Shown: in pieces, positions 8,793 to 35,948 of the stretch
Layout of the letters: each line of letters opens with the position of its first letter
How positions within the stretch are numbered: position 1 is the stretch's first letter
From: a virus
IMG/VR virus record: IMGVR_UViG_3300021087_000017
Span: 1-55,941 of that record
DNA: 55,941 bases
Reading direction: 5' to 3' (one strand)
Translations under genes and position numbers: made by a program
The notes under the pieces: model-generated
The model's input: only the letters and a program-made list of their open reading frames with translations
What the model was told of the DNA's origin: nothing
Database searches by the model: none

Positions 8793-10346
8793 TTAATACC
8801 CAAATGTTGCATCTGCAGGTGTGTATCCTTTAGTTAATAGGCTAGCATCAAAATCAAATATGTTAAATCTTGGTCTTGTCATTACACCATAGCGTAGTGC
8901 ATCGTATAAATGATCTTCTGATTTTGTGTCTACATCTTCAGAATTATTCTTATCTAATGGAATGGACGGTAATTGTGATATAAGATTTACACAGTTACTA
9001 AAAAATACTAGCCTTGGTTCTTCTGTAAAATCATCTACCTGTAAACGTCTATGTATTTCGTTTTTACCAGATACTCGACTACCTTTACTTCTATCTGATG
9101 GACGCCATCTACAGCCTTTCATAATCATTTGTTCAGCTAGGCTAGGTCCGGTATCACCTCTTTTGTGCCACAAGGAACTATCTAATACTCCATACTTAAT
9201 TGTACCATCGCCCTGTTCCATATCTAAAACCATGTCTGCTAAATCTGTAGCTAAAACTTTAGATACATACAACTCTCTATAAACAATTAATTGTTCATCT
9301 GGTGAAACCGTAAACCAGACTACTGCACTGTATGAGCCATACCCGTAATCACATGCTCTAAACTTAACCCAGTTAGAAGGAACATCAAAGGGTTCAATTA
9401 CATGTATCTCTCTATTAAACTCTGTAAAGGCTGCACCTTCTTTTATATCCCAATCACCATTTAACAATTGCCGTCTTTGCTGTTCTGGCAGAGACAGAAG
9501 CATCGCTTCATAATCACCTGACTCTGATAAGTAAGGATTATCCGCTAAACTAGCAGGTATAAATTTACGTTTAAATAAAGCAACTCCCTCTTTACTGTGC
9601 CCTTCAGGATAAAGCATTGGATTACCTGTCTCAATATCTGTGGCATTAAATGCTTTATTTGGTACAGCAGGATCAATAAACATTTTTTTAACCCAGCCGT
9701 GCCCCCTACCTCCGGGGTTAGTAGTTGCCCTCATATAGATAGGCAAATCGGGAGCAGTGGATCGTAGACGAGAACGCATGTAATTCCAAGCAAATGGAGT
9801 AGACCATTGTGTCAACTCATCAAAGCCTATCCAGCTAAACGCTAGACCCTGATAACGCGCTACATCTTCGTCTCTATCTAAGTAAGACATCCATAGACGC
9901 GCACCAGATGGCGCGACCCACTGCATCTTTCTTTCTGACCACTTAATTCCCGGCCAGATTTGCGGATACAGTTCCTGCGACTTAAATATTAGCTCTCTTA
10001 GTTCTTCCGTTGTATGGCGTAATAGTAAGCCGCTAAAGCTAGGATGACCCATATAGCGTAATGGATCAGCTAACATCGCATATGATTTACCACCTCCTGC
10101 TGCGCCTCCGTATAGTACTTCTCTTTCACCTGCAGCTAAAAATTCGGTCTGTGGTCCCTCATTAGGTTTAAAGATAACAACATGTGTATCTTCTATTGAG
10201 TCTTTTTTATCTATATGTATCTTACTCTGCTGTGCTTCTTGCACCCGTTCTTTCTTCTTCGATGGCTTGCGCTTTGAGGATTGCCTTTTCCGCATAGTCT
10301 GCCCATCTGCGGAGGCTTGTAGCTTGATCTTTACGCTGTCGCTCAT
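8793..10346 (-). CDS. terL: Terminase large subunit
   Basis: The DNA-packaging motor has an N-terminal ATPase and a C-terminal nuclease (517 residues). Walker A is GGAAGGGKS at 80-88 and Walker B is WIGFDE with D176/E177. The nuclease part shows acidic motifs in FRACDYGYGS, YGVLDSSLW and DHLYDALRY. The N-terminal 55 residues are very basic and lie within a 125-base overlap with the gene upstream. I kept the first ATG because an AAGGAA ribosome site precedes it; Met18 is the alternative. It is followed by the portal gene. Confidence 0.92.
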   Translation of the reverse strand: MSDSVKIKLQASADGQTMRKRQSSKRKPSKKKERVQEAQQSKIHIDKKDSIEDTHVVIFKPNEGPQTEFLAAGEREVLYGGAAGGGKSYAMLADPLRYMGHPSFSGLLLRHTTEELRELIFKSQELYPQIWPGIKWSERKMQWVAPSGARLWMSYLDRDEDVARYQGLAFSWIGFDELTQWSTPFAWNYMRSRLRSTAPDLPIYMRATTNPGGRGHGWVKKMFIDPAVPNKAFNATDIETGNPMLYPEGHSKEGVALFKRKFIPASLADNPYLSESGDYEAMLLSLPEQQRRQLLNGDWDIKEGAAFTEFNREIHVIEPFDVPSNWVKFRACDYGYGSYSAVVWFTVSPDEQLIVYRELYVSKVLATDLADMVLDMEQGDGTIKYGVLDSSLWHKRGDTGPSLAEQMIMKGCRWRPSDRSKGSRVSGKNEIHRRLQVDDFTEEPRLVFFSNCVNLISQLPSIPLDKNNSEDVDTKSEDHLYDALRYGVMTRPRFNIFDFDASLLTKGYTPADATFGY

Positions 10347-10626
10347 GGGCTAATCTTTTCCTTAATCCTACATGCGAAATATAGCGTCCTGTGCGGGTAC
10401 TTAACCAGTTAGCTACTTCTCTATACGAGTATTGCTTTATATACTTTCTAGCTTGTTCTATTGCCTCTAATTCTATGGTTATAGGTAGCAATAAGTCCTT
10501 ATCTTCTGCATCTAGCACGTATCCAAAGGGAATTGTTCTAGCAATTCGTGGTATCTTTAACCATTCGCCCTCTTTTTTTAAATCAGTAGGCTGTGGTAAT
10601 TTCCAAACGCCTATTTCTCTAGTCAT
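10222..10626 (-). CDS. HTH-type protein between the two terminase genes
   Basis: The 134-residue protein has a likely helix-turn-helix (YSYREVANWLSTRTGRYISHVGLRKR) and a basic, helical C-terminus. It overlaps the small-terminase gene by 8 bases and the large-terminase gene by 125 bases, so all three are co-translated. It could take part in DNA recognition for packaging or act as an accessory small terminase. The function is inferred from the HTH and the position. Confidence 0.65.
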   Translation of the reverse strand: MTREIGVWKLPQPTDLKKEGEWLKIPRIARTIPFGYVLDAEDKDLLLPITIELEAIEQARKYIKQYSYREVANWLSTRTGRYISHVGLRKRLAHERQRKDQATSLRRWADYAEKAILKAQAIEEERTGARSTAE

Positions 10627-10990
10627 CGTCCGAAGTATTTTTAGCAGGTAGTAGCATTATACCACCAGAACTCTCTACTTGCAACTTTTCAGTTTTAACT
10701 AGCCCACTTCGATCCAATAATTCTTTTGCTGCAGACATTTTTTCCTTTATACCTAGTTCTGTTGGGTCTGTAATGCCACTAACCATAGCCATAGCTGCTC
10801 TAGGAGCGTTACGAGCCATGAATAACTGCGTAGCATCTAGTACTTCGTCCCGTAGTCCCCGAATAATCTCTGTAGTACTGGTACTTTCCGCATATCCAGC
10901 TAGTAATTTAGCTTTTACTACGTCACCACCGGCTTCATCAAAGAGTACAGAGAGGAAAGAGGACTGTTTTTCTGTTAAATTCTTGCTCAT
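10619..10990 (-). CDS. terS: Terminase small subunit
   Basis: The 123-residue protein begins with an LTEKQSSFLSVLFDEAGGDV-type helix-turn-helix segment seen in small terminases that bind pac DNA. A central helical region follows (KEKMSAAKELLDRSGLV, the usual oligomerisation element). The order small terminase, HTH protein, large terminase, portal supports the call. It starts one base after the stop of a small membrane-protein gene. Confidence 0.75.
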   Translation of the reverse strand: MSKNLTEKQSSFLSVLFDEAGGDVVKAKLLAGYAESTSTTEIIRGLRDEVLDATQLFMARNAPRAAMAMVSGITDPTELGIKEKMSAAKELLDRSGLVKTEKLQVESSGGIMLLPAKNTSDDD

Positions 10991-11172: not shown

Positions 11173-11616
11173 TTATTTCATCCTTGTAGCCGTGCCACCA
11201 TTACGATAATCTTTGTGCCCATGTCGATACTTCGGACCTATGAGTGCACCCTTTGCTGCACCTTTACGCTTTTTAGGTGGCGTAGTTAATTCAGGCCCCG
11301 TAGCTTTTTTCATCCTAATTTGCTTTTCAGCCTTTGCTACACGAGCTAAATACTCCTCTTCTGACATATCTAGGCCGTATTTTTTCTTCATTGTAGTATT
11401 AAACCACTTCGTAAATTTTGGGCCAAGTTTTTGGTCTGACCCATATTGTTTACTACTCCGGGAGGTATAAAAAGTTTTTGCGCCCATGTAATCGCCAGTC
11501 TTCTTATCATAAAATTTTGCTGGAATAAGACCGGCATCTTTATATGCCTTTATATCAATAGTATCTTCCATATGTCTTGCTTCCGCAGTTTTGGCTCTCT
11601 TTTTCTTTACTGCCAT
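11173..11616 (-). CDS. Basic late protein with C-terminal GHKDYRxGG motif
   Basis: The 147-residue, Lys-rich protein has an N-terminus MAVKKKRAK and a C-terminal tail GHKDYRNGGTATRMK. A closely similar tail occurs in the protein at 14417-15250 and in the small protein at 14268-14417. The basic composition suggests DNA or RNA contact or packaging inside the virion. It follows the lysozyme gene. No enzymatic motif is seen. Confidence 0.7.
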   Translation of the reverse strand: MAVKKKRAKTAEARHMEDTIDIKAYKDAGLIPAKFYDKKTGDYMGAKTFYTSRSSKQYGSDQKLGPKFTKWFNTTMKKKYGLDMSEEEYLARVAKAEKQIRMKKATGPELTTPPKKRKGAAKGALIGPKYRHGHKDYRNGGTATRMK

Positions 11617-12870: not shown

Positions 12871-13254
12871 CTATTTCTTTCCAAAAAACTTAGTAGCACC
12901 CCGTACACCGAATGAGGCAGCTATAATAACACCTAAACTATACTGATACCATTCCGGCATAGTTTCTAGTTGAGCAAAGCCACTCTGTACAATATGTTCT
13001 GCACCGGGAACAAAAGCTAGAATTAATGGTATAGAAAATAGAATTACTAGCCACTCATCTTTCCAGCTATTCTGTGATCCTTTGATTGCCTCTAAGTCCC
13101 AATCAATTTCACCAGTAGCTTGCTTCTCCATGATAGTTGCTTTAGCCTTAGCTTCGGCAACCTTGACTTCGTTGTTTGCTTTTGATGCAGCTACCCGTCC
13201 TTCTAAAAAGGTATTAGCTAAACTGGCAACTGGGCCTATTAGCGCACCTAACAT
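12871..13254 (-). CDS. 3-TM-type holin-like protein
   Basis: The 127-residue protein has an amphipathic start (LIGPVASLANTFLEGRVA), a charged Ala/Lys-rich middle, a segment SWKDEWLVILFSIPLILAFV and a C-terminal hydrophobic part ending FFGKK. This layout resembles the GTA_holin_3TM family of alphaproteobacterial phages and gene transfer agents. The gene starts with TAATG overlap from the upstream small gene. It is the best holin candidate here. Confidence 0.65.
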   Translation of the reverse strand: MLGALIGPVASLANTFLEGRVAASKANNEVKVAEAKAKATIMEKQATGEIDWDLEAIKGSQNSWKDEWLVILFSIPLILAFVPGAEHIVQSGFAQLETMPEWYQYSLGVIIAASFGVRGATKFFGKK

Positions 13255-13425: not shown

Positions 13426-13737
13426 TTATAATTTAGAATCTTTTTTCTTGGGAGTAACGTGTGATGAAGATTCTCCTCCAGACACAACACATGTTATATT
13501 TCTTTCCATGTCATAAAAAGCAATTGTCCACCCTCCTGTTTCGGGGTTCTCATACAGGAAAGTAAGTTGTTGCGTTTTGTCAGTTTTATTAGTAATTCCT
13601 ACCCATACTTTCTCTTCTTTAAAAGTAGTTGATAAATACTCATCTATTTCTTCAGGAGATGCACAAGGTGCAGAAACAGCGTAAGAAGCGGAAGCAATTA
13701 CGCATAGTAGGATACTTAATATGAATGTTTTAAACAT
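13426..13737 (-). CDS. Secreted or periplasmic small protein
   Basis: The 103-residue protein has a clear signal peptide, MFKTFILSILLCVIASASYA, with cleavage likely after SYA. The mature part has Cys residues at both ends that may form a disulphide, and a basic tail (TPKKKDSKL). It is the first gene after the promoter at 13.85 kb and heads the lysis cluster. It may act in the periplasm during lysis or exclusion. I do not recognise the family. Confidence 0.65.
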   Translation of the reverse strand: MFKTFILSILLCVIASASYAVSAPCASPEEIDEYLSTTFKEEKVWVGITNKTDKTQQLTFLYENPETGGWTIAFYDMERNITCVVSGGESSSHVTPKKKDSKL

Positions 13738-13862: not shown

Positions 13863-14138
13863 TTACCATTTAACTTTATTAGCCCAATATGCAGCACTGA
13901 GTTTTCCTCTTTTAATATTAGCTGCATGTCTGGCTTTGAATGATTTACGTCTAGCTTTATTCTTAGAAGTTGAGGGATTCTTACCTGCCCCACTTACTCC
14001 CTGCTGACCAAAGCGTATTGTCTTTACGGTACTTCCTACTTTAGCTACAACAACGTGAGATTTAGTAGGATGCTTAGGAGTGCGCTTTGGTTTATTATAA
14101 CCCGACACTCCTATGCGTTTTAGTATACTGTCAGACAC
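13863..14138 (-). CDS. Conserved basic phage protein (DUF6321-like)
   Basis: The protein contains stretches I associate with a widespread marine phage family: GYNKPKRTPKHPTKSHVVVA, then KTIRFGQQGVSGAGKNP, KARRKSFKARHA and the C-terminus SAAYWANKVKW. It is strongly basic and probably binds nucleic acid. I favour a GTG start at 14138 (91 residues), with AAGG just upstream and an 8-base overlap with the Cys-rich gene. The frame is open to another GTG at 14207. Function in the family is unknown. Confidence 0.7.
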   Translation of the reverse strand: MSDSILKRIGVSGYNKPKRTPKHPTKSHVVVAKVGSTVKTIRFGQQGVSGAGKNPSTSKNKARRKSFKARHAANIKRGKLSAAYWANKVKW

Positions 14139-14256
14139 TCCAGCCTTCTTCAGCTTCTTCCATAGGTACTCTGACGCACTCACACATTTCAGGAGTACAG
14201 TTTTCACAAGAACAATCTTCTGGGCATTGATTGCAAGTACAGTTTTTACATGCCAT
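14131..14256 (-). CDS. Metallothionein-like Cys-rich peptide
   Basis: This 41-residue ORF has a good GGAG ribosome site. It carries nine Cys in its first 27 residues (positions 3, 6, 8, 11, 15, 17, 20, 25, 27), giving repeated CxC and CxxC spacings with no aromatic residues among them. The tail is acidic (MEEAEEGW). The spacing is that of a metallothionein or another metal-cluster-binding peptide. It lies between two basic late genes, with tight spacing on both sides. Metal binding is inferred; the identity of the metal is open. Confidence 0.65.
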   Translation of the reverse strand: MACKNCTCNQCPEDCSCENCTPEMCECVRVPMEEAEEGWSV

Positions 14257-14267
14257 ATTAATTCTCC

Positions 14268-14417
14268 TTATTTCTTTTTTGACTTATTATTATTATTTTT
14301 ATTATGGAATAAACCACCCTTACGATAGTCAGTATGACTCATTTTCTTTTTAGCTGTGGCAGCAGCTTTATAACCCGCCTTTGTATACGGGTAGTGTTTA
14401 TCTCCTACTTGTGGCAT
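14268..14417 (-). CDS. Small basic protein with HTDYRKGG motif
   Basis: The 49-residue Lys/Asn-rich protein starts in a TAATG overlap with the upstream gene. It contains KKKMSHTDYRKGGLFHNK, matching the C-terminal tail of that same upstream protein, and ends with an Asn/Lys run. It may carry the same virion-targeting or nucleic-acid-binding motif as its neighbours (inference). Confidence 0.6.
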   Translation of the reverse strand: MPQVGDKHYPYTKAGYKAAATAKKKMSHTDYRKGGLFHNKNNNNKSKKK

Positions 14418-15250
14418 TAGTAAAACATCCCTCCTTTACGGTAGTCTTTATGTCCAGTTTTAATTATTCCACCCCTATTATTTTTCCGGGGTCGTCTAGG
14501 ATTTGGTGTAAATATTTCCGGTCCACCATGTCCTCTGGGTTGACCCATAGACCTTCTACGAGCCATCTTGGGTTGGCTAGCATCTTCCGCTATAGCCTGT
14601 CTTACAGCTTGTGTAGTAGGTCGCTTATTTAATGCTTGTCTTGCCTCAAAATTTCGTACCGCTGTTTCTATTTGATTAGGAGTCATACCCTCAGAAATCA
14701 CTCCTGTTTCAAGCATTTCAGCATAATCATCTCTTTCATTTAACCTACGTCTTTTCTGGGCTTCTGATTTATTTTGTCTACTTTTTATACTCCTACCTGC
14801 TTGTGCTTCAGCAGATGCAGCATCTTCTGCATCATAACGTCTTAGCTGTGCCCAATCTCTTTTACTGAGGGTTCCAGCTTTTCTCTTTGCTTCAAGTTTA
14901 ATAATATTATTTGCTCTTTTTCTTGTAGCTGCAGTTTGCTGTTCTTTAGTAAAACCTTGTGCACGAGAACCAGCACCAGTACTAACTCGCTCTCCTTTAG
15001 TACCAACTCCACGAGCTACGTCAAAAGAACCTTCTGTATCTGGATCAAGAGCAGCACCTTCTGCCTCTGCATTTTTACTAGGTACCCCTTTTTGAGCGGG
15101 CATATCACCCTCGTGTTCTTTTTTCCTAGCAGCTAATGCATCTACCCTAGCCTTTTCTTCAGCCTTAGCAGCCCTATTTTTATTTTTCCTTCTTGTCGCC
15201 CAGCCTTTTTTAGCTGCAGCCCTCCGCGACAAAGCTGTTATTATACCCAT
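14417..15250 (-). CDS. Large basic late protein with C-terminal GHKDYRKGG motif
   Basis: The 277-residue, Arg/Lys/Ala-rich protein is mostly helical or disordered and begins MGIITALSRRAAAKKGWATR. Its end, IIKTGHKDYRKGGMFY, is shared with other late proteins here. Such composition suits DNA condensation or a virion core protein. It follows the histone-H1-like gene. No catalytic motif is seen. Confidence 0.65.
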   Translation of the reverse strand: MGIITALSRRAAAKKGWATRRKNKNRAAKAEEKARVDALAARKKEHEGDMPAQKGVPSKNAEAEGAALDPDTEGSFDVARGVGTKGERVSTGAGSRAQGFTKEQQTAATRKRANNIIKLEAKRKAGTLSKRDWAQLRRYDAEDAASAEAQAGRSIKSRQNKSEAQKRRRLNERDDYAEMLETGVISEGMTPNQIETAVRNFEARQALNKRPTTQAVRQAIAEDASQPKMARRRSMGQPRGHGGPEIFTPNPRRPRKNNRGGIIKTGHKDYRKGGMFY

Positions 15251-15274: not shown

Positions 15275-15802
15275 CTACTTACGAATGCTACGTTTTTTAG
15301 CTAGGCCACCCCTATTCATTACCATACCAGTTTTAGGATCATATTTACGCTGACCAGAATCCATAAGATACTTCATATTCTCCTCTGTACTTTTTTTCTC
15401 TTTAGAAGATTTAGAAGTAGCTTTCTTTTTTGGTGTACCATACACCGTTTTTTTAGCTGTTGGCGTTGCTTTAGCCTCAGCTTCTGCTCTCGCTGCCGCA
15501 GCTTTACCCCTAGGAGAATTTTTAAATTTCGTCGCATTGGCTTTTCTTTGTTTAGCCAACATAACTTTATTTTGTTTAGCCAACTTCTGATCCCGCAGTG
15601 CCTCCGCCGCATTTCTAGCTTCTGCTTTTTTTGCCGCAGCTTTGTATTCAGGAGATTTTTTATATTTAGCTGCTTTGGCTTTTTTATTTTTACCATTAGT
15701 AGGTGGTTTTTTACCGCCGCCAGCCGCTGCTGCTTTAACAGGTTTTTTCTTTTTCCTTGCCGCTGCACCGGCTATTTTAGCTAACCCTTTAAGTATACCC
15801 AT
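15275..15802 (-). CDS. Lys/Ala-rich histone H1-like protein
   Basis: The 175-residue protein is dominated by Lys and Ala, as in bacterial histone H1-like proteins. It has two related segments (KYKKSPEYKAAAKKAEARNA and KFKNSPRGKAAAARAEAEAK). The C-terminus is MVMNRGGLAKKRSIRK. It likely binds DNA without sequence specificity, either condensing packaged DNA or coating host DNA. It is second in the leftward convoy, so it may be made early in late transcription. Confidence 0.65.
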   Translation of the reverse strand: MGILKGLAKIAGAAARKKKKPVKAAAAGGGKKPPTNGKNKKAKAAKYKKSPEYKAAAKKAEARNAAEALRDQKLAKQNKVMLAKQRKANATKFKNSPRGKAAAARAEAEAKATPTAKKTVYGTPKKKATSKSSKEKKSTEENMKYLMDSGQRKYDPKTGMVMNRGGLAKKRSIRK

Positions 15803-33879: not shown

Positions 33880-34038
33880 ATGGAAATACCAATCAATCTC
33901 GTGAACGAAATTATAAACTACCTAGCCCGACAGCCCTATAAGGACGTTGCTAATATAATAGGGGCAGTAATACAACTACAGGCAAGGGAACAGTCCAGCA
34001 CAGAACAGACAGAGCAGAAGGAGCTACCCTTAATATGA
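33880..34038 (+). CDS. Small helical protein before RNR
   Basis: The 52-residue protein after AGGAGATCAAC begins MEIPINLVNEIINYLARQPY. It continues with AVIQLQAREQSSTEQTEQ and ends KELPLI. The stop overlaps the RNR start by 4 bases, so translation is coupled. A partner or regulator of RNR is conceivable. Confidence 0.55.
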   Translation: MEIPINLVNEIINYLARQPYKDVANIIGAVIQLQAREQSSTEQTEQKELPLI

Positions 34039-35948
34039 TAACAGACTATCAGGCATTCATCCATCAGTCACGTTATAGTCGCTGGCTTGATAAGGAGGGG
34101 CGTAGAGAGACATGGGAAGAGACAGTGCGAAGGCTACTAGATTTTTACAAGTCTTTTCTTAAAACAAATCACGGCTATGACATGCCTAAAAAAACGTACA
34201 CTGATCTATACGTAGCTATCGTAACTATGCAGATCATGCCCAGCATGAGAGCTATGATGACGGCTGGCCCTGCATTAGAGCGCAACCATATAGCTGCTTA
34301 TAACTGCAGCTACCTGCCTGTGGACAGCCCTCGCTCCTTTGATGAGTGCCTCTACATCCTGATGCATGGCACAGGTGTAGGCTTTAGCGTGGAGCGTCAG
34401 TTCATCAACCAGCTTCCCACTATCCCTGATCAGTTTGACTCTAGCGAAACTTGTATCGTTGTACAGGACAGTAAGGAAGGTTGGTTCAGATCATTTAAAG
34501 AACTGATTAATCTGTTGTATGCTGGACAGGTTCCTCAATGGGATATGTCTAAGGTACGTCCGCAAGGTGCCAAGCTAAAGACCTTTGGGGGCAGGGCAAG
34601 TGGTCCTGAACCTTTGAATGAACTGTTCAAGTTCACCTGCAACCTATTCAGGAATGCCAGAGGCCGTAAGCTTAATAGCTTGGAGTGTCACGATCTGATG
34701 TGTAAGATTGCTGACGTTGTGGTTGTTGGAGGAGTACGTAGGTCTGCACTGATTAGCCTGTCTAACCTTAGTGATGATCGAATGCGTCATGCTAAGAGTG
34801 GGGATTGGTGGAACACAGAACCTCAACGATCCTTTGCCAATAACTCTGTATGCTATACAGATGGCTTAGATACAGGTTCCTTCCTGCGTGAGTGGAGTGC
34901 CTTGTATGACAGTAAGTCAGGTGAGCGAGGTATCTTCAACCGTCAGGCTGCACAGAAGCAAGCTGCTAAGTATGGACGCCGGGAGTCTGATGTTGACTAC
35001 GGTACAAACCCATGCAGTGAGATCATCCTTAGACCTAAGCAGTTCTGTAACTTGAGTGAGGTTGTTGTAAGGGCAGACGATACGGCAGAATCCTTGCAGG
35101 ATAAGATTGAACTTGCAACTATTCTGGGTACGATCCAGTCTTGCTTCACTGATTTTAAGGGACTAGGTAGGCAGTGGTCTAAGAACACAGAAGAGGAACG
35201 TCTCTTAGGTGTGTCTCTTACAGGCATACTTGACAACGCTATGCTGGCTAATAAGACAAGAGATAGCTTACCTGCGCTGTTAGGTAGTCTTAGGACAGGT
35301 GCAGTTAATACTAACCGTAAGTGGGCAACTATGCTAAACATAGAGCCGTCCGCTGCCATTACTTGTGTTAAGCCTAGTGGTACGGTTAGTCAATTGGTTG
35401 ATGCTGCATCAGGTATACATCCTCGACACTCTGAGTACTACATCAGAACAGTACGTGCAGATAAGAAAGACCCACTGACTTTGTTTATGACGGATGCTGG
35501 GTTCCCTGTCGAGGATGAGAACAAGAAGCCTGAATCAACTGCTGTATTCTCCTTCCCTATTAAAGCACCGAAGGGTGCAATAACAAGGCACGATATGACA
35601 GCTATTGAGCATCTTGAGGTATGGAAAATTTATGCAGAGTATTGGTGTGAACACAAGCCATCCATCACAGTTAGTGTTAAGGAGGATGAGTGGCTAGAGG
35701 TTGGGGCATTTGTATATAAGAACTTTAATGATATGTCAGGTGTAAGTTTTCTACCTATGTCTGAACATATCTATGAGCAAGCGCCTTACCAAGATTGCAC
35801 TAGACAAGAGTACGAAAATCTGTTAGAGTTAATGCCTAGTAAAATAGATTGGAAGAAACTTAGTGAGTATGAAGGTGATGATAATACAATCGCATCACAG
35901 ACGTTTAACTGTGTTGGTGATTTTTGTGAAGTAGTTGACTTAGTTTAG
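34035..35948 (+). CDS. nrdJ: Class II (cobalamin-dependent) ribonucleotide reductase
   Basis: The 637-residue monomeric-type enzyme converts ribonucleotides to deoxyribonucleotides using adenosylcobalamin. Visible motifs are the NPCSEIIL active-site loop with Cys, CNLSEV, the GTGVGFSVER loop and KPSGTVSQ. The C-terminal Cys pair region (FNCVGDFCEV) may relay electrons. No small subunit is present, as expected for class II. The host must provide or take up B12. Neighbours are SufT-like, ThyX and MazG genes. Confidence 0.9.
   Translation: MITDYQAFIHQSRYSRWLDKEGRRETWEETVRRLLDFYKSFLKTNHGYDMPKKTYTDLYVAIVTMQIMPSMRAMMTAGPALERNHIAAYNCSYLPVDSPRSFDECLYILMHGTGVGFSVERQFINQLPTIPDQFDSSETCIVVQDSKEGWFRSFKELINLLYAGQVPQWDMSKVRPQGAKLKTFGGRASGPEPLNELFKFTCNLFRNARGRKLNSLECHDLMCKIADVVVVGGVRRSALISLSNLSDDRMRHAKSGDWWNTEPQRSFANNSVCYTDGLDTGSFLREWSALYDSKSGERGIFNRQAAQKQAAKYGRRESDVDYGTNPCSEIILRPKQFCNLSEVVVRADDTAESLQDKIELATILGTIQSCFTDFKGLGRQWSKNTEEERLLGVSLTGILDNAMLANKTRDSLPALLGSLRTGAVNTNRKWATMLNIEPSAAITCVKPSGTVSQLVDAASGIHPRHSEYYIRTVRADKKDPLTLFMTDAGFPVEDENKKPESTAVFSFPIKAPKGAITRHDMTAIEHLEVWKIYAEYWCEHKPSITVSVKEDEWLEVGAFVYKNFNDMSGVSFLPMSEHIYEQAPYQDCTRQEYENLLELMPSKIDWKKLSEYEGDDNTIASQTFNCVGDFCEVVDLV

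Follow-up and report, generated by a model that had tools for sequence, protein, structure and literature searches.

The question raised by this locus is what a 41-residue, cysteine-rich peptide does among the late genes of a podovirus. The window analyzed here is the whole 55,941-base virus record, and its phage is of the HMO-2011 type, because its terminase large subunit (8793..10346, minus strand) is 79% identical to that of Roseobacter phage CRP-1 and 78% identical to that of Puniceispirillum phage HMO-2011. According to a published survey of HMO-2011-type phages, the main subgroup's most abundant members are still unisolated, and the majority of protein groups have no assigned function (PMC9038755); the word metallothionein is absent from this main comparative paper. 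Also, among full-text, open-licence papers we found none naming a phage or viral metallothionein. The reading we favor, with a probability of about 0.6, is that the gene encodes a metal-thiolate peptide with metallothionein-like function that stands outside the known metallothionein families and buffers or captures zinc or copper late in infection.

The initial annotation had proposed a 41-residue gene at 14131-14256, naming no strand, with a strong ribosome site, nine Cys in CxC/CxxC spacing and an acidic tail. Translation and comparison with relatives confirmed the reading frame on the complement strand (14256-14131; coding region 14256-14134, stop codon TGA at 14133-14131), and its product is MACKNCTCNQCPEDCSCENCTPEMCECVRVPMEEAEEGWSV. 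The ribosome-binding site was found as AAGGAG (14269-14264, minus strand), 7 nt upstream of the ATG. The nine Cys, which make up 22% of the peptide, occupy residues 3, 6, 8, 11, 15, 17, 20, 25 and 27 and form a core (residues 3-27; 14176..14250, minus strand) with the spacing C-x2-C-x-C-x2-C-P-x2-C-x-C-x2-C-x4-C-x-C. The peptide has a net charge of -7, no His, a single aliphatic or aromatic residue within the Cys core, and no signal peptide, as Cys is already present at residue 3. The acidic tail is there as well and should be interpreted with caution: tails differ between subgroups, and GAAGAAGG within it (14151-14144, minus strand) likely serves as the ribosome site for the downstream gene, whose GTG start is at 14138. 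An AlphaFold model of the peptide was poor (mean pLDDT 58.6); low confidence is expected for a metal-held peptide, and the model therefore neither supports nor harms the metallothionein-like reading.

Because its ribosome site and stop overlap the flanking genes, the peptide gene is packed in one late block, in agreement with the operon of basic late proteins proposed earlier. On the downstream side, the 3' end of the peptide gene, TGA included, overlaps the start of the following gene by 8 bases (GTGTCTGA); this gene (13863..14138) codes for a 91-aa basic protein matching phrog_7595, whose function is unknown. On the upstream side, AAGGAG overlaps the TAA stop of a gene for a 49-aa basic protein containing SHTDYRKGGLF (14268..14417), a homologue of which lies 5' of the peptide gene in several relatives, and this is preceded by a gene for a 277-aa basic protein ending GHKDYRKGGMFY (14417..15250). 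The block further contains a phrog_2524 membrane protein, assigned by PHROG match and holin-like by reading (12871..13254), that is also found near class B genes described below; a phage lysozyme assigned by Pfam match (PF00959; 11635..12120); and both terminase subunits, the small one (terS; 10619..10990) assigned by position and by its match to named relatives. All of these genes are on the minus strand.

Several other features of the block were observed. The motif [GS]H[KT]DYR[KN]GG is common to at least three late basic proteins (GHKDYRKGGMFY, SHTDYRKGGLF and GHKDYRNGGTA). The motif set comprises genes at 11173-11616, 14268-14417, 14417-15250 and 15275-15802 (all minus strand), another of which ends MNRGGLAKKRSIRK; relatives also have GG-x-KK-type endings in proteins encoded directly before the Cys peptide. 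The shared motif is possibly a virion-targeting or nucleic-acid-binding tag. Small basic proteins of phrog_7595 were present in at least about 600 viral contigs, beside portal, coat, lysozyme or other genes, and this spread (including L122-L201) suggests an important or mobile gene. Linkage to phrog_7595 was dropped as a functional clue because the gene was found in hundreds of unrelated contexts. Besides, a 103-aa protein encoded at 13426-13737 (minus strand) has an apparent signal peptide, two later Cys and a weak match to phrog_25396 (1.6e-4); many class A contigs encode a homologue close to the Cys peptide, compared with only 1 of 80 phrog_7595 loci.

Relatives of the peptide, here termed class A, were detected in 30 IMG/VR contigs. 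IMG/VR was scanned for the spacing C-x2-C-x-C-x2-C-P-x2-C-x-C-x2-C and, in an alignment-based scan, with NCxCxxCP only; a first, loose seven-Cys scan had returned mostly antisense or poly-Cys frames, and Pro after the fourth Cys was required thereafter. Class A comprised 18 distinct complete proteins, specified by 22 different coding sequences. Overlaps and near-duplicates exist among IMG/VR contigs, and all counts therefore refer to contigs and distinct sequences rather than independent species. The proteins fell into three size groups: 41 aa, 57-62 aa with a PQDDFGY-like tail, and 29-32 aa with almost no tail. In an alignment of 15 distinct sequences, eight Cys columns were invariant and the ninth nearly so; one member (L214) had eight Cys instead of nine. 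C25 and C27 were retained in nearly all members although they lie outside both search patterns. Thus, tails varied among groups, the Cys core was constant, and start, ribosome sites and operon overlaps were conserved. The seven distinct coding sequences of the 41-aa group gave a pN/pS of 0.24, indicating purifying selection. It is this conservation that establishes the gene as real.

A second form of the peptide was found in sister phages. Neighbours were gathered via terS, the anchor of this presence/absence survey, and the upstream region was searched for any Cys-rich frame, with no class B spacing used. Phages with 86-100% identical terS had the 41-aa gene in every locus extending far enough upstream. 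At 72-78% identity, all eight loci extending far enough encoded a different peptide, for example MTKDRCETCECYECDCEECNCECHTEKKNEEVQGVPV (locus L375 ends right at the site of this gene), with eight Cys followed by one His: C-x2-C-x-C-Y-x-C-x-C-x2-C-x-C-x-C-H. No Cys-rich peptide was found among the loci examined upstream of terS at 58-65% identity. A scan for this class B spacing recovered at least about 90 distinct sequences in at least about 118 contigs. Among the matches listed, 108 of 118 class B loci had homologues of window genes, most frequently phrog_2524 and lysozyme, and the strand was almost always the same. When the two classes are aligned, class B matches eight of the nine class A Cys. 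As class A has nine Cys and class B has eight Cys and one His, each offers nine potential metal ligands, a number that is kept while spacing, tails and flanking genes change. Cores of both classes had a net charge of -4 to -7 and 0-2 aliphatic or aromatic residues. Conservation in HMO-type genomes, which the initial annotation had named as a check, was seen in both classes, and the Cys spacing was not lost within class A; the spacing of class B differs, with equal ligand number. A membrane protein of a more distant relative (L398, 4787-5041) has MTCACGNENCKCSTDD at its N terminus, resembling a fusion to a short Cys motif.

We mapped both classes on a tree of terminase large subunits with 62 rows, on which the labels A, B and none required 5 changes, compared with 25.8 when shuffled. 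Class A occupied two well-separated places, the clade of the window and a clade beside pelagiphage HTVC033P in which the gene lies directly before terS, and class B occupied clades adjoining the window. Searches with tblastn in a phage collection told little, as the Cys core is apparently masked by the low-complexity filter (in one run only the tail of the peptide matched), and named records were scanned by pattern instead. By this pattern scan, 16 named records (including HMO-2011 and cultured CRP and HTVC phages, among them CRP-1, CRP-345 and HTVC033P) had neither class, the sole match, in CRP-9, being interrupted by an in-frame stop. The gene is therefore dispensable in the group. In the HTVC033P record (L284), about 670 unannotated bases precede terS (1048-1718); a Cys-rich frame was searched for there and none was found. 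Such a metal or redox role had been expected to be new or rare for marine podoviruses; the peptide is not rare in this phage group, where, although the 16 named relatives lack it, one form or the other (class A or B) is common among uncultured HMO-2011-type phages.

Family searches gave a consistent picture. A Pfam search of the peptide returned 0 families at E<=10, and the SmtA control matched PF02069 at 4.5e-21; membership in PF02069 (SmtA/BmtA) was thus rejected, and the profile check against metallothionein families suggested earlier came out negative. There was no significant match to PHROG profiles for class A or class B, no NCBIfam match for the class A peptide, and nothing significant for the peptide family in Pfam or among PDB sequences. 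Identity as a zinc ribbon or zinc finger was likewise set aside, given the 0-2 aliphatic or aromatic residues of the core and the lack of a Pfam match. Profile libraries miss the gene because it is so short, and the family is conserved in many uncultured relatives yet unlisted in protein-family databases. In the broad functional sense, the peptide has the traits of a metallothionein: low mass, high Cys content, CxC/CxxC pairs, few aromatic or hydrophobic residues and conservation in relatives, together with a conserved ligand number (nine Cys for almost every class A member, eight Cys plus His for all 8 class B survey loci). The earlier term metallothionein-like accordingly holds for Cys density, acidity, lack of a hydrophobic core, ligand number and a bacterial look-alike beside an ArsR gene (see below), and does not hold as membership in PF02069 or any other family searched.

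Comparison with known systems also showed both likeness and difference. SmtA/BmtA and the phage peptide are both small and Cys-rich with CxC/CxxC pairs, and a cytoplasmic site and a metal-thiolate cluster are likely for the latter. SmtA contains a zinc-finger part, whereas class A lacks this part and the His ligands; SmtA has 56 aa versus 41 aa, and the phage gene lies in a late block without an SmtB regulator. No SmtB/ArsR or Zur regulator was found among the searched neighbours of the phage gene, nor any metal-responsive regulator or transporter linked to it in phages. The beta domain of animal metallothioneins is a nine-Cys M3S9 unit that holds three metals in a nine-thiolate cluster. It resembles the phage peptide in its nine Cys, CxC pairs, length of about 30 residues and near absence of hydrophobics, but it is Lys-rich with another order of spacing, whereas the phage peptide is acidic, and no sequence relation was found. 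The mycobacterial copper metallothionein MymT is likewise a small Cys-rich bacterial peptide, set beside the phage peptide by description only. In other viral contigs, different small Cys motifs (CEECxCxRCPCxCxCxCC and CPHCxCPSCPCxCECDCC) end short frames (L206, L241, L246, L269, L209, L232, L249 and L242) and may represent a further family of metal-binding peptides.

Among 84,980 bacterial and archaeal species, the specific peptide pattern had 0 matches and the nine-Cys spacing had 13, the sole convincing gene being one for a His/Cys-rich protein of Janibacter (L323, 1463-1714, minus strand) with the identical seven-Cys spacing. This gene lies immediately downstream of an ArsR-family gene (HTH_5, 2.9e-11), whose end it overlaps by 4 bases. 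Seven actinobacterial relatives (L328-L334) had closely related Cys arrays, and 8 of 8 loci showed pairing with an ArsR-family (ArsR/SmtB-type) gene. Family-wide matches to the Janibacter protein mostly covered only its His-rich part, and those were set aside. In cyanobacteria, smtA is controlled by smtB, and SmtB, an ArsR-family protein, represses smtA (PMC12193353; PMC9337993). The Janibacter protein has no Pfam or NCBIfam name, and together with ArsR it is probably an unrecognised bacterial metallothionein system. The actinobacterial protein differs from the phage peptide in its long His-rich N-terminal part, an often present second Cys repeat, its bacterial origin and its pairing with ArsR. 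The resemblance, which concerns Cys spacing only, may be convergent; as an analogy it supports the idea that the phage peptide works like a metallothionein rather than homology.

On the metallothionein-like reading, a small cytoplasmic peptide would be translated alongside late genes for virion assembly, lysis and packaging. With its nine ligands it would enclose about three d10 metal ions, Zn(II) being the most likely and Cu(I) a possibility, and the resulting thiolate cluster would substitute for a hydrophobic core in holding the chain together. The core is acidic with at most two aliphatic or aromatic residues, so that no hydrophobic core is possible and the chain would most naturally be held by a metal cluster; by established metallothionein chemistry, such cores argue for a metal-held fold. 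Late in infection, the peptide would buffer or sequester zinc or copper released from dismantled host metalloproteins and ribosomes, or might strip metal from host proteins. We infer metal binding in this way and, with it, stoichiometry, metal identity, timing and purpose.

The main rival, which we consider unlikely although well ahead of the other alternatives, is a small adaptor or inhibitor with one or two structural zincs, whose acidic surface or variable tail would contact a protein of the phage or of the host, such as host RNA polymerase, a sigma factor, or a packaging or lysis partner; the metal would be structural and not stored. Phages often encode small zinc-binding effectors, and the tails are conserved within subgroups (PMEEAE[ER]xWSV, PQDDFGY and EEVQGVPV), as expected for partner binding; in one subgroup the gene directly adjoins that of the terminase small subunit, and acidic charge could imitate nucleic acid. 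However, a single Zn site takes four ligands, fewer than the eight or nine present; ligand number is constant despite altered spacing, the core has almost no hydrophobic residues from which to build a zinc-ribbon fold, and one subgroup is almost tailless (31 aa, ending CDCKKKE).

A thiol redox or Fe-S peptide, which would scavenge oxidants or carry an Fe-S cluster in infection, appears improbable. CxxC pairs are typical of thiol redox sites and Fe-S ligands, and the phage has a ribonucleotide reductase-like gene (34035-35948, named by reading of the sequence) that would need a thiol reductant; yet the peptide gene lies in the late block, apart from the reductase, the Pfam, PHROG, NCBIfam and PDB searches gave no match to thioredoxin, glutaredoxin or ferredoxin families, a hydrophobic core is absent, and d10 metal clusters better suit both the dense CxC pairs and the His conserved in class B. 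Still more improbable is a disulphide-rich secreted or lysis-related peptide, as the presence of lysozyme and phrog_2524 genes in the same block might suggest: the absence of a signal peptide, the odd number of Cys in class A, the rarity of disulphides between CxC pairs and the reducing cytoplasm all speak against it. Finally, the frame is short and many random poly-Cys frames fit loose spacing patterns. From base composition, about 0.0015 25-codon windows with at least nine Cys codons are expected per strand in a sequence of this length, a figure that does not yet require a start, a ribosome-binding site or the absence of a stop. A chance open frame has the lowest probability of all, close to nil, and is refuted by the thirty class A and more than 100 class B contigs, the pN/pS value and the conserved translation signals and overlaps.

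The metallothionein-like reading thus stands ahead of these alternatives. A stronger version, that this is the first phage-encoded metallothionein family, with two nine-ligand spacing classes that are common in uncultured HMO-2011-type phages and serve a late takeover of the host zinc or copper economy, is more tentative, and we place it somewhat below even odds. The two independent spacing solutions with equal ligand count give a clear prediction for metal binding by the peptide. In the surface ocean, both zinc and copper are in short supply and tightly handled. A metal-sequestering peptide in a dominant marine phage group would, if true, be a new viral route to trace metals, and lysis would then be linked to the chemical form of the released metal.
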